Assembly (NCBI GenBank): GCA_016342495.1
Contig: JAEIOG010000027.1
Span: forward strand, 1 to 53,674
Length of the DNA: 53,674 nt
From: Phycisphaerae bacterium
GTDB lineage: Bacteria; Planctomycetota; Phycisphaerae; Sedimentisphaerales; SM23-30
Reading direction: 5' to 3'
Shown: positions 4,693 to 45,056 of the stretch, piece after piece
Position numbering within the stretch: the stretch's first letter is position 1
Layout of the letters: each line of letters begins with the position of its first letter
Made by a program: the position numbers and the translations under genes
The notes under the pieces: generated by a model
Database searches by the model: none
What the model was told of the DNA's origin: nothing
Seen by the model: only the letters and a program-made list of their open reading frames with translations

Positions 4693-4837
4693 ATCATTTT
4701 GCTCCAAAATTTGGGGAATCTTATTATTTTTAGTGCTTATAATAGCGTTATGAAGCAGGGTTTGCTAATCGAATATATCGAAAAAAGCAGGTTTTATCAT
4801 AGCTGGGCAGTTTTTTTAATATTTTCCTAAAAAGGGG

Positions 4838-4866
4838 TTGACTTTTTGTTATAAACCCCATATTAT
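4838..4866 (+). promoter_or_regulatory. sigma70-type promoter of tRNA-Val
   Basis: TTGACT (4838-4843) and TATTAT (4861-4866) are separated by 17 bp, and the tRNA begins 13 bp after the -10 box, leaving a short 5' leader. This is the expected layout for a housekeeping promoter driving a lone tRNA gene. Confidence 0.75.
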
Positions 4867-4879
4867 TCTCTATCTCGAC

Positions 4880-4953
4880 GGGCGTGTAGCTCAGTTGGCT
4901 AGAGCGCCTGCCTTACAAGCAGGATGTCAGGGGTTCAAGTCCCTTCCCGCCCA
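4880..4953 (+). tRNA. tRNA-Val (anticodon TAC)
   Basis: Cloverleaf read by eye. Acceptor strands are 4880-4886 and 4946-4952, with one T-C mismatch at pair 6. The D-arm contains TAGCTCAGTTGG. The anticodon stem is CCTGC/GCAGG around loop CTTACAA, putting TAC at 4914-4916 (reads GTA valine codons). The T-loop is TTCAAGT. Discriminator A is at 4953 and CCA is not encoded. Confidence 0.95.
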
Positions 4954-4961
4954 TTACCGTT

Positions 4962-4996
4962 AAAAAAGCTGGGTATTAAAGTATCTGGCTTTTTTT
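4962..4996 (+). terminator. intrinsic terminator after tRNA-Val
   Basis: AAAAAAGC (4962-4969) pairs with GCTTTTTT (4988-4995), and the 3' arm is itself the T-run. It lies 9 bp past the tRNA. The stem is weak in GC but well placed. Confidence 0.55.
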
Positions 4997-5181
4997 ATGC
5001 GCAAATATAGCCCAGCTAAACCAAGCTTATAAAATTGCCTACCTTCGGGGGGAGGTGGTTTTTTTAAAGCTTGATATATATCTGGTATTGTTTAGAATCT
5101 ATTTTATGGTTATTATTGTATTTTTTATCACCTTTGTACTTTTGACGGTCTGGCACCGCGTTTAATTAATTTAGAAAACTG

Positions 5182-41297: not shown

Positions 41298-41789
41298 TTA
41301 ATATCTGCTCATTGCCCGTTTGACATCGCGTTCTTGCTGCTGAGACTTCATTTTATCTCGTTTGTCGGATTGACTTTTTCCTTGGGCGATAGCTATTTCA
41401 ACTTTAGCTAAACCCCGGTCATTGAAGTAAATCCTTGTCGGAACTACAGTTAGACCCTTTTGGTTGAGCTTAATCTCAATCTGGCGAATCTGTCTTTTAT
41501 GAATTAACAGCTTCCGGGGACGTTTAGGAACGTGATTATAGATATTGCCATGACTGTATTCAGATATATTGCATTCCAGCAAAAAAAGCTCGCCGCCACG
41601 TATGCGGCAATAGGCCTCGTCCAGCGATGCTTTGCCATTTCGTAAGGATTTAACTTCAGTGCCTTCCAGCACAACTCCCGTTTCCAGCTTTTCAATAAAA
41701 TGATAATTGAACCGGGCTTTTTTATTATTTATCCGCGGGCTAAAGGGTTTGTCCGCCTTATTTTCCTTTTTCTTACCTTTTTTTGCCAT
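41298..41789 (-). CDS. smpB: SsrA-binding protein SmpB
   Basis: Binds tmRNA and brings it to stalled ribosomes. An OB-fold core includes ARFNYHFIEKLETGVVLEGTEVKSLR and ISEYSHGNIYNHVPKRPRKLL, followed by a basic C-terminal tail (GKSQSDKRDKMKSQQQERD) that inserts into the mRNA channel. The ORF extends to a TTG at 41819, but the ATG at 41789 (MAKKGKKKEN) fits the family better, giving 163 residues. The ssrA gene was not found in this window. Confidence 0.95.
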   Translation of the reverse strand: MAKKGKKKENKADKPFSPRINNKKARFNYHFIEKLETGVVLEGTEVKSLRNGKASLDEAYCRIRGGELFLLECNISEYSHGNIYNHVPKRPRKLLIHKRQIRQIEIKLNQKGLTVVPTRIYFNDRGLAKVEIAIAQGKSQSDKRDKMKSQQQERDVKRAMSRY

Positions 41790-41933
41790 ATATGTCAGCT
41801 TATTTTCTATTTTTTCCAATGTTTTTCATACAACTAACCTAATAGCATAGCAAAATTTATACTCTCTGGCAAATCCTAATTAAACCTGTATTGTTTGCTG
41901 TGTGCGAGATTATTTTCTGGACGAAAATCAAGG

Positions 41934-42301
41934 TTAGCGGGTCGCTGCCGTTGGGCGATGTTTGTTGGAGATGGACAGAAGCCCCGAAGGGGCGGTATAT
42001 TTTAGCCCAGGGCATCGCCCTGGGGATAGAACGTCAAAGCCCATTTTATGCCCTGTAAGGGCAATATAATCAATCCCAAGGAATTATGTCGGCCTTACAG
42101 GCCTGAAAAGAGTGGCGTGGGCTTTACCCAGCTTTACCCAGGGTGTTGCCCTGAGCTATGTTATGCTGGCCTTACAGACCCGAATGGGTGGCGGCATTAT
42201 TGCGGAGTGTCGGATGGGTGGAACAGGTGTAGAGACAAGGCATGCCTTGTCTTGGTTGGGGTTAGTGAGTGTTTAGGGCAGGAATTAGCGGGTCGCTACC
42301 G
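41934..42301. repeat. element of GC-rich hairpins bounded by 17-bp direct repeats
   Basis: Within the 684-bp smpB to SSS gap, TTAGCGGGTCGCTGCCG (41934-41950) recurs as TTAGCGGGTCGCTACCG (42285-42301), 16 of 17 identical. Between them lie short GC-rich hairpins: GCCCCGAAGGGGC (41981-41993), CCCAGGGC/GCCCTGGG (42006-42024), GCCCT/AGGGC (42050-42062), GGCCT/AGGCC (42091-42103), and a perfect 20-bp palindrome (42233-42252). The GC content contrasts with flanking DNA. It looks like a non-autonomous interspersed repeat. The 91-codon ORF inside it is not credible. Confidence 0.75.
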
Positions 42302-42473
42302 CTTTCCTTTGTTTTTTTGTTAGAAATTATGATTATCAAAAAAAACTCGCAAGCCACTATTTGAAATTATCAATTTTATAGTTGCCGTCAGTGTTTCCTT
42401 AAGGTATTATTACCCTGCTATTGTCCCCACAATTAATAGCGTAAACTCATGTTTTTTTTTAAGGAGTTATTGT

Positions 42474-45056
42474 ATGCATTTACAAATGCTTGCTATGAAA
42501 TTAGCGAATGTTGACTGGGTCATCATTATAGCCTTCTTCCTGGCAATTATTGGTATCGGTCTGTTCGTTGCCCGGAAATCTGCCAAAGATTCCGAAGGCT
42601 ACTTCCTTGGTGGCCGTTCCATGCCTTGGTGGCTTTTGGGTGTCTCTATGGTTGCCTGTACCTTCTCTTGTGATACCCCAAACCTGGTAACCGGTATGGT
42701 CCGTGAAGGTGGTGTCGTTGCTAACTGGGGATGGTGGGCTTTTCTTATTACTGGTATGGTAACAGTATTTATCTATGCTCAGCTTTGGCGTCGAAGCAAG
42801 GTTATGACCGATCTGGAATTCTACGAAATGCGTTACAGTGGTAAATCCGCTGCTTTCATTCGTGGTTTCCGTTCGCTTTATCTGGGTGTGTTCTTTAACT
42901 GCCTTATTATGGGTACAGTAACATTGGCCGCCATCAAAATCGGCCAGGTTATCTTTGATGTCGAACCATGGGTTGCTGTTGTCGTTGGCTCTGTTGGCGT
43001 AGTTATCTATGCTACCGCTGGTGGTATTAAAAGCTGTATCTGGGCTGATTTCTTCCAATATTCAATCGCCATGTTTGGTGCTGTTTATGCCGCTATTGTT
43101 GCTTGTCGTCAACCTGAAATTGGTGGCCTGTCAAACCTCTTAACTCATACTGATGTTGTTGGTAAACTTAGCTGGATGCCTGATTTCTCTACCTGGCTGG
43201 CTTGGGTTCCTATGCTCCTTATTCCTGTCGCTGTTCAATGGTGGGCTGTATGGTATCCTGGTGCTGAACCCGGTGGCGGTGGCTATATCGCTCAGCGTAT
43301 GCTTGCCGCTAAAGATGAAAAGAACGCAATCGGGGCGACCATGTTCTTTAACTTCATGCATTATGCTATCCGTCCCTGGCCATGGATTATCGTTGCCTTA
43401 GCTTCGATCGTTCTCTATCCTGACTTAGCTTCCATCAAAGCTCAGTTCCCCGGTATCGATCCATCTTACCTCAAAGAAGATATCGCTTACCCGGTTATGA
43501 TCTCCAAACTTGGTCCTGGTCTTCTTGGTTTGGTTGTTGCTTCGCTGATTGCTGCATATATGTCAACTATCGGAACTCATCTTAACTGGGGTTCCTCATA
43601 TGCTGTCAATGACTTCTACAAACGTTTTATCAAACCTGAAGCTTCCGAAAAAGAACTTGTTGGTGTCGGCCGTATCGTTACTGTCATTCTTATGGTTATT
43701 GCCGCTTTCTTTGCATTGACTTTCCTGGAAGATGCTAATCAGGCTTTCAAAATCCTGCTTCTAAGTGGTGCCGGTACCGGTGCTATCTATATTATGCGTT
43801 GGTTCTGGTGGCGTATTAATGCCTGGACCGAAATTGTCGCTATGGTTGTCGCAACCGTTGTAGCTTTTTGGATCGTGCTGGGCGTTGGCGAACAGGGCAC
43901 ATTGAAATGGTATGTCGATAGCTCTTCGGTTAAAGCTCAGGTTTTCAAAATTGATGATCCGGCTTTGACTGCCGATATTACTGCTAGCATAGAATCTGGT
44001 AGTAAAAAAACTGATGAACTGACTGCTCTTTCTGCTGATAAAGTTTCTGTTTGGCGCAAAGCCAAAAAAGATCCTTTGGCTCGTGATCTGGCTCGTTTAG
44101 ATTTTGATGCGGCCAATAAAGCCGAAACCGACCACAATAATTCTATTACTGTGATGGCTCAGGTTAAGGCTAAAAGCAATATTGAATATGTCTACCAGGT
44201 GAAATCTAAAGAAGATGTCGAAAAGGTTATCGCCGACGAAATCGCCAAAGCCAAAACTGACGAAATAGAAGCTCCCAAAGCTACTTCTTACGAAGCTGTC
44301 GTTGCTGAATTTGCAGAACTTAATGCTGCAAAAGATGCCACAGCTAAAGCTTCCGACGCTGCATTAGTTGCTCATGGCTTGGCTCTTAAAACTGCAAAAA
44401 CCTATGAAGACCCTGCTCTTGTCGCTGCTCGCGAAGCACTGGTTGAAGCTGATGCAATTGCCTACAAAGCTAAGACTGCATTTGACCGTCACTATGCTAA
44501 ATATGGCATGACCGTTGCCGTGGTAAAAGATGGCCCGGATACTCCTGCATGGTTCGCTGACTTCAATACCTTCGTTGGTACATATGGCAAAGATGTTAAG
44601 GCTATTATCAAGGGCGATGCAATCTATGTCTATGAATCAAAAGTTGCTGGTTTGACTTTTGCAGTCCAGCTTCTGGTTTGTGTCATCTTTGTTACTATCG
44701 CTTGGATTCTGGCAACCTTCGTTACGCCTGCTGTTGACAAAGCTAAATTACGCAGCTTCTACAAAATCTGTCAGCCGGGTGGCCCTGGTTGGAAGAAAGT
44801 CGTCGCCGAAGCCAAAGCTGATGGCGAAGACATCGACTCTACCAATGGTATTGGCGACTGGAAAATGCCTATCCAGATCCTTTGTGTATTCTTTGGCTGT
44901 GTCGCTATCTATAGCTCACTGTTCGCCATTGGTAACTTCCTCTATGGCAACACTGGCTGGGGAATAACGATGCTGGCTGTCGCAGCGGTCTCTACGGTTA
45001 TCCTGTTTAACTTCTTTGGTAAGATCGGTGTCCAAACCGAAGAAGCTAAAAGCTAA
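42474..45056 (+). CDS. sodium:solute symporter (SSS family) with large soluble insertion
   Basis: Na+-driven importer, possibly for sugars. The N-terminal part (about 14-470) has the SSS core: ARKSAKDSEGYFLGGRSMP, YATAGGIKSCIWADFFQ and LIAAYMSTIGTHLNWGSSY. Residues about 473-722 form a hydrophilic, Ala/Lys/Glu-rich, mostly helical insertion placed between two membrane segments. Three more hydrophobic segments follow (about 724-750, 799-822, 828-848). At 860 residues it is much longer than usual (about 500-600). Strong SD TAAGGAG lies 7 nt before the ATG, and a terminator follows. Substrate is unknown. Confidence 0.9.
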   Translation: MHLQMLAMKLANVDWVIIIAFFLAIIGIGLFVARKSAKDSEGYFLGGRSMPWWLLGVSMVACTFSCDTPNLVTGMVREGGVVANWGWWAFLITGMVTVFIYAQLWRRSKVMTDLEFYEMRYSGKSAAFIRGFRSLYLGVFFNCLIMGTVTLAAIKIGQVIFDVEPWVAVVVGSVGVVIYATAGGIKSCIWADFFQYSIAMFGAVYAAIVACRQPEIGGLSNLLTHTDVVGKLSWMPDFSTWLAWVPMLLIPVAVQWWAVWYPGAEPGGGGYIAQRMLAAKDEKNAIGATMFFNFMHYAIRPWPWIIVALASIVLYPDLASIKAQFPGIDPSYLKEDIAYPVMISKLGPGLLGLVVASLIAAYMSTIGTHLNWGSSYAVNDFYKRFIKPEASEKELVGVGRIVTVILMVIAAFFALTFLEDANQAFKILLLSGAGTGAIYIMRWFWWRINAWTEIVAMVVATVVAFWIVLGVGEQGTLKWYVDSSSVKAQVFKIDDPALTADITASIESGSKKTDELTALSADKVSVWRKAKKDPLARDLARLDFDAANKAETDHNNSITVMAQVKAKSNIEYVYQVKSKEDVEKVIADEIAKAKTDEIEAPKATSYEAVVAEFAELNAAKDATAKASDAALVAHGLALKTAKTYEDPALVAAREALVEADAIAYKAKTAFDRHYAKYGMTVAVVKDGPDTPAWFADFNTFVGTYGKDVKAIIKGDAIYVYESKVAGLTFAVQLLVCVIFVTIAWILATFVTPAVDKAKLRSFYKICQPGGPGWKKVVAEAKADGEDIDSTNGIGDWKMPIQILCVFFGCVAIYSSLFAIGNFLYGNTGWGITMLAVAAVSTVILFNFFGKIGVQTEEAKS

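Follow-up and report, generated by a model that had tools for sequence, protein, structure and literature searches.

What kind of element is the hairpin-rich segment that separates two divergently transcribed genes, one smpB-like and one sodium:solute symporter-like, in the window, as we call the whole 53,674-nucleotide stretch of DNA analysed here? An earlier note had placed a non-autonomous element made of REP-like pieces, or else a structured RNA, at 41934-42301, with 17-bp direct repeats as its boundaries. We propose that the core of the segment, 41980-42181, is a miniature non-autonomous transposable element that arose by internal deletion from a one-gene parent of TnpA subclass 1.2, a reading to which we assign a probability of roughly 0.83. 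Its direct support consists of the repetition of the core, the inverted pairing of its ends, their association with a transposase gene, a remnant of the transposase C-terminus and covariation almost without G-U pairs.

Within its own genome (G000; 5.4 Mb in 221 contigs, 95% completeness), whose contigs are given below by C-numbers alone, with other G-numbers for relatives' genomes and L-numbers for individual loci, the composite repeat 41912-42315 has 63 matches, ranging from one full copy down to small fragments. The search for further copies that the earlier note had recommended thus succeeded, and the case it had named as fatal to an element, a unique locus in all relatives without the direct repeats, does not apply. 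The fullest second copy, on C6, covers 41912-42315 at about 90% identity between unrelated flanks, and its edges are sharp, with 82-97% identity inside and 56% and 52% in the flanks of a forced global alignment; the earlier observation holds, the unit being slightly longer than the bounds 41934-42301 first proposed. Folded as single-stranded DNA, 41934-42310 reaches -69.9 kcal/mol (z -3.75, with 0 of 100 shuffles equally good), and where at least five GC-rich hairpins had been claimed we count at least seven short ones by reading the sequence, beside the computed inverted repeats. The partial copies have other limits: that on C26 begins at 41959, the main match on C186 stops at 42191, and C94 holds 41981-42186 only. 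Since the copies end at differing points, we regard the segment as a mosaic, in which three repeat families are separable on sequence grounds: a family that we call R, a GTAG palindrome and the core (Table 1). The symporter-like neighbour has homologues in 39 of 40 relatives.

Table 1 Features of the composite repeat and of the genes on either side of it (positions in the window)
Feature	Position	Strand	Basis
Neighbour gene, smpB-like	41298-41819	-	Open reading frame; name from reading the translation, without family search
Left copy of family R, holding the first 17-bp repeat	41912-41979	+	97% identical to C6 there
End 1, Acido-Lenti-1	41980-42024	-	Rfam RF01687, 50.6 bits (gathering score 37), E=2e-10
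Hairpins of end 1	outer 41981-41993; TAG-footed 42006-42024		Within minus-strand end 1
Inner hairpin GCCCTGTAAGGGC of end 1	42050-42062		Read in sequence
Transposase C-terminus remnant, TGG GAT TGA (Trp-Asp-stop)	42070-42078	-	28-nt string match
Inner hairpin GGCCTTACAGGCC of end 2	42091-42103		Read in sequence; computed inverted repeat
End 2, Acido-Lenti-1-like, inverted relative to end 1	42137-42181	+	R1 model, 45.4 bits, E=3e-9
GTAG-footed palindrome, third repeat family, REP-like	42229-42253	+	29 of 63 genome matches
Right, partial copy of family R, holding the second 17-bp repeat	42277-42317	+	82% identical to C6 over 42277-42315
Neighbour gene, sodium:solute symporter-like	42474-45056	+	Open reading frame; name from reading the translation, without family search

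The direct repeats exist as described: the copies at 41934-41950 and 42285-42301 are identical at 16 of 17 positions, each contains AGCG-GGT-CGCT, and with up to three mismatches allowed they are the only two matches in the window, against 0.06 expected. The 15-base core of R, which they contain, has 22 exact copies in the genome, of which 17 lie elsewhere than in the composites of C6, C26 and C183, and the 17-bp repeats therefore represent a separate, dispersed repeat family; a target-site duplication was rejected on this ground, and the view of the repeats as element boundaries finds no support. Relatives checked for an empty site with a single 17-bp copy yielded none that was base-precise. 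R occurs mostly alone in the genome, its lone copies (L036, L045, L047) having in common an upstream TTTTCTGGACAAAAATC-type stretch. Among 79 R-core matches, the variant AGCTGGGCGCT[AG]CCG is present at 26 places (e.g. G000:C94:35987-36001 and C79:23209-23223); it could represent either a further family of repeats or a motif conserved in coding sequence.

One could still envisage the whole composite between the direct repeats as one mobile unit that has R at its borders and carries the core along, as 41912-42315 is common to the window and C6 with sharp edges. We consider this improbable, given that the core has different limits on C94, C186 and C26, that R is mostly solitary and absent from all six RAYT loci of the genome, and that a segmental duplication would look alike. 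The larger 404-bp composite with R, itself present at two sites, does count against our own reading as well, this being unexplained by TnpA alone.

The perfect 20-bp palindrome noted earlier was confirmed at 42233-42252, and 29 of the 63 composite matches are exact 25-26-nt matches to the GTAG palindrome that holds it. This palindrome is of the same type as GTAGAGACGTTGCATGCAACGTCTC, which adjoins a RAYT gene of the same genome (L012). Six PF01797 proteins are encoded in the genome, and GTAG palindromes lie near two of the RAYT loci (L010, L012), which fits the palindrome of the window. Might the core, too, be a REP or REPIN of RAYT type, moved by these genes? Its inverted doublets and a TAG foot resembling GTAG could be read in this way, yet for the core we find the idea most improbable, as the six RAYT-like loci have neither an RF01687 match at E<=0.1 nor a match to R1, our own model of the core ends, and the partner proteins found in relatives are IS200/IS605-type by NCBIfam (NF033573; three of three short ones over the cut-off) and not REP_Tyr_transpos. 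The RAYTs of this genome were accordingly rejected as partner of the core. At L010 (G000:C147, Y1 gene at 4803-5075), the RAYT-like gene is flanked on both sides by inverted pairs of GTAGGACAAGCAT-type palindromes, and this gene and the neighbouring sulfatase-like frame each read through one such palindrome (HYGIQDKQDACPTF) ahead of the start.

The core itself is an inverted pair of ends of the Rfam family Acido-Lenti-1 (RF01687), of which end 1 exceeds the gathering score; end 2 reaches only 16.1 bits with the Rfam model, under that score, and is recognised by R1, which we built from 15 equal-length sequences of this genome and its relatives. End 2 lies outside the training set of R1, and the match of end 1 (E=3.7e-15) is that of a training sequence. 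The genome holds 16 RF01687 matches, with minus/plus pairs spaced by some 148 nt on C6, C26, C186 and C94. Across this genome and its relatives the family is found in 19 of 40 genomes, with 0 to 46 matches each, and within the single genus g21 the counts are 0, 3, 11 and 19; the copies of this genus were tried as a guide to the element ends and proved too derived. In the phylum, 51 of 199 genomes carry the family, and among the matches read in these 199 genomes at least 12 minus/plus pairs 135-161 nt apart face one plus/minus pair within 250 nt, core-type pairs thus being inverted doublets of hairpin repeats in the manner of REPINs. Elsewhere, Acido-Lenti-1 units are arrayed in tandem, one roughly every 277 nt (L148, G015:C1:2483500-2487000), and derived motif copies are adjoined by GTCATTCCCGCG-type repeats, some of them tandem (L177, G029:C23; L182, G025:C22), which resemble the CGTC-REPs described as being without transposase in PMC3733652.

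Acido-Lenti-1 entered the literature as an RNA candidate in 2010, known in Acidobacteria and Lentisphaerae (PMC2864571), and a 2026 paper considers it beside protease genes, as possibly regulatory (PMC13298647). These reports, the Rfam match above the gathering score and helices that are conserved and covarying would all agree with a structured small RNA, acting in trans or on neighbouring genes, an explanation that we nonetheless hold to be very unlikely. The copy number described above, from 0 to 46 per genome with matches in both orientations and in inverted pairs, argues against it, as does the finding that in many phyla the motif lies at the flanks of a transposase gene. In 79 distinct motif sequences, whose alignment had been fitted to the structure, pairing in the helices reaches 97.4%, and 135 double changes stand beside 4 G-U among about 921 standard pairs, compared with 14 G-U among 200 standard pairs in a small control of nine tRNAs. 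Since the compensatory changes come almost without G-U, a hairpin read as DNA is favoured over an RNA. The suggestion of a structured RNA thus holds insofar as Rfam names the core an RNA, whereas the evidence favours a DNA element, which may have a secondary RNA role as well, DNA elements being transcribable too. In the open-licence text of PMC we found nothing that ties Acido-Lenti-1 to a transposase.

In relatives, short Y1 transposase genes directly adjoin RF01687 matches, and the full layout, consisting of an end, an inner hairpin, the gene, a second inner hairpin and the inverted end, is present on C90, C130 and C47 of G036 and on C12 of G027. In the autonomous elements on G036 C90 and C130, the inner hairpin GCCCTGTAAGGGC occupies the same position relative to the gene. 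The partner is an HUH/Y1 transposase of 148-150 amino acids that reaches solved TnpA structures by sequence (ISHp608 and ISDra2-type chains). Among 84 such proteins, WQxGY is found in all 84, Y---Q--HH in 81 and the HUH pattern in 79, and Quentin et al. 2018 (PMC6006769) give WQ and Y---Q--HH as the motif signature of TnpA subclass 1.2; they describe this subclass as generally without the typical terminal IS200 structures, and as low-copy and lacking the IS properties that its sister group has.

The protein search gave 20 subclass-1.2 loci above 100 bits in relatives, and at 14 of them Rfam or R1 places the motif no more than 350 bp from the gene; none was found near the gene at G036 C132, G036 C57, G032 C8, G014 C102 and G017 C74, and G039 C58 has weak matches only. 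At 19 other Y1 loci, R1 gave no match at E<=0.01. A protein tree, in which the deep forks are unresolved, was used solely for the separate grouping of five ordinary IS200-type rows. The genome G036 carries diverged transposase genes, with a mean identity of 50% among seven of them, beside 46 motif copies, and such a combination of few diverged transposases with tens of motif copies resembles a REPtron more closely than an expanding insertion sequence. One subclass-1.2 transposase, whose neighbours in the tree are Acidobacteriota and Chloroflexota rows, comes from a metagenome bin labelled Klebsiella pneumoniae (L224, CAMBFS010000007.1), a label that is probably wrong. The linked transposase that the earlier note had proposed to look for thus exists in relatives and was missing at home: the window's own genome, a draft of 95% completeness, gave 0 matches to a subclass-1.2 transposase yet has its 16 RF01687 matches, and this is evidence against our reading.

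The association extends beyond the genomes used for training. From a scan of named genomes, with protein alignment, we kept the best 80 of 583 confirmed loci, which span Planctomycetota, Verrucomicrobiota, Acidobacteriota, Bacteroidota, Chloroflexota, Zixiibacteriota and others. Around these best 80 of 583, 53 of 66 motif matches (E<=0.01) fall within 350 bp of the transposase gene and 13 farther off, a 44-fold enrichment per base beside the gene in which tandem matches are not independent; 44 of the 53 near matches have the expected orientation, minus upstream and plus downstream, and 9 are discordant. Near matches occur at 25 of the best 80 loci, on both sides at 12, while the remaining 55 have no R1 match within 350 bp and many of them have other inverted hairpin ends. 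A comparison free of any motif model, made on the 72 of these best 80 of 583 loci that have full flanks (8 were dropped for short ones), shows inverted-repeat flanks that exceed the 99th percentile of shuffling in two-base blocks at 54 loci, and that of mismatched loci at 42. Hairpin density beside the gene is seven times that found 600-1500 bp off, and TAG stands ahead of the stem in 33 of 101 upstream and 35 of 97 downstream hairpins close to the gene, compared with 3 of 73 distant ones. From the inverted flanks, the hairpin density and the TAG enrichment across loci we conclude that this architecture is more widespread than the sequence of Acido-Lenti-1.

At the level of whole genomes, RF01687 is present in 39 of 42 transposase-positive (match at E<=1e-20) and 12 of 157 negative genomes among the 199 of the phylum, and in the nearer set of 40 the motif is present in 10 of 11 positive and 9 of 29 negative ones; the genomes being related, p-values computed from these counts overstate their independence. 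The negative relatives with the motif, the loci without a near match and the near matches of opposite orientation speak against our reading. Two genomes, G009 and G008, have 45 and 26 motif copies and no intact subclass-1.2 transposase that we could find; either these drafts miss the gene or the repeats outlive it.

How the core relates to such autonomous elements is indicated by a 28-nt string, TGGGATTGATTA..TTGCCCTTACAGGG, which comprises the last codons and the following hairpin of the open tnpA genes on G036 C90 and C130. It recurs with 0 mismatches in the core of the window and on C186, and with 1 on C26, 2 on C6, 3 on C94 and 5 on C214, with no gene ahead of it in any of the own-genome copies. 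Keeping the hairpins and the last transposase codons without the gene, the core looks like an internal-deletion derivative; and as its genome lacks the transposase and only a two-codon remnant is left, we speak of a non-autonomous derivative rather than of a member of subclass 1.2. An intermediate exists at G013:C4, where a truncated tnpA lies between both ends. In G009, 19 of 20 copies examined can be aligned over some 95 bp as a three-hairpin unit between unrelated flanks, in which similarity ends at the outer hairpin and the inner edge varies. Remnant, intermediate and dispersed units are what internal deletion followed by dispersal would leave, to judge from the sequences.

The decayed element at G013:C4 (L141, 179000-181921) is situated between two copies of a host segment, a corrinoid-protein-like gene end plus a terminator, and looks like the outcome of a flank duplication, comparable to the pair of R copies that surrounds the element of the window. 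The flanks of the G013 elements, searched in eight genomes, gave no base-precise empty site, which together with the want of a defined target counts against our reading. The left-hand neighbour gene of the G013:C4 element recurs in G038, G023 and G019 and twice in G035, and of these five regions only L191 (G035) covers the stretch past the end of that gene; it has no element there, and its intergenic DNA is not alignable to the base. Plasmid and phage records offered no pair with and without the element, and one close plasmid homologue.

Mechanistically, we picture the parent as a single-gene element encoding a 148-150 aa HUH/Y1 single-strand transposase of TnpA subclass 1.2, each end of which would consist of three hairpins, one small and outermost, one larger whose 5' foot bears TAG, and one small and adjacent to the gene, with the two ends inverted relative to each other; the Acido-Lenti-1 'sRNA' of Rfam would then correspond to the outermost and the TAG-footed hairpin of a single end. 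By analogy with IS608-type enzymes the transposase would read the hairpins as folded single-stranded DNA, and on the model of IS608 and TnpA-REP it may bind the TAG-footed hairpin on single-stranded DNA, cutting and rejoining during replication. It could also move gene-less copies in trans, from which solo ends, arrays and inverted pairs would result, and the window would hold one such miniature element as part of a composite to which two further repeat families contribute, between divergent genes. Recognition, cutting and mobilisation by TnpA are thus presumed by analogy. It could also be speculated that the element, whatever its origin, is kept for host use, in promoter spacing, as a terminator or for RNA stability; the intergenic position and the absence of a subclass-1.2 transposase from its own genome would be in keeping with this, and copies that are 75-91% alike are not recent. 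We deem such use unlikely, and a terminator would be hard to explain where both divergent genes lie downstream.

More broadly, we think it likely that Acido-Lenti-1 is not an RNA gene but the recognition end of a hitherto unrecognised, phylum-spanning, REP-like TnpA subclass 1.2 system, which would form a second REP-type lineage beside the RAYTs, with inverted, multi-hairpin, TAG-footed ends and with few diverged transposases that keep up solo ends and inverted pairs by the tens in each genome. The evidence suggests that the 'small RNA' family RF01687 comprises the DNA ends of a widespread jumping-gene system. Two orphans would thereby be joined, the Rfam 'sRNA' receiving a DNA explanation and the transposase subclass its ends, and a single-strand DNA substrate, directly testable, is offered for the whole subclass. 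Acido-Lenti-1 annotations should accordingly not be taken as regulatory RNAs (compare PMC13298647).

Among known systems, Acido-Lenti-1 RNA is the closest in sequence, end 1 of the core scoring above its gathering score; known as an sRNA candidate, it is here one end of a paired, transposase-linked DNA repeat. With IS200/IS605 elements (IS608, ISDra2) and their miniature derivatives the system shares the HUH/Y1 transposase, hairpin-bearing ends beside the gene, here in relatives, and gene-less derivatives. It differs in that its ends comprise several hairpins each and are inverted rather than in the same orientation, as in the 44 of 53 near matches at the best 80 of 583 loci. In IS608, both ends are read on one strand. 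REPINs and their RAYTs are similar in their inverted doublets, in few transposase genes facing tens of repeats and in a tetranucleotide-like hairpin foot, which here is no strict GTAG but a conserved TAG preceded by an apparently variable base; unlike theirs, the partner is TnpA subclass 1.2 and not a RAYT, and the motif was at none of the six own RAYT-like loci. TIRYT elements likewise combine a Y1 transposase with flanking inverted repeats and are reported in Acidobacteria among others, but their proteins are RAYT-like, 20 of 26 falling in subclass 2.1, and their repeat is of GGGG type, as opposed to the series of hairpins here. Hairpin-ended HUH/Y1 miniature elements are already known; what appears to be new is the link of this Rfam family to TnpA subclass 1.2, together with inverted multi-hairpin ends.
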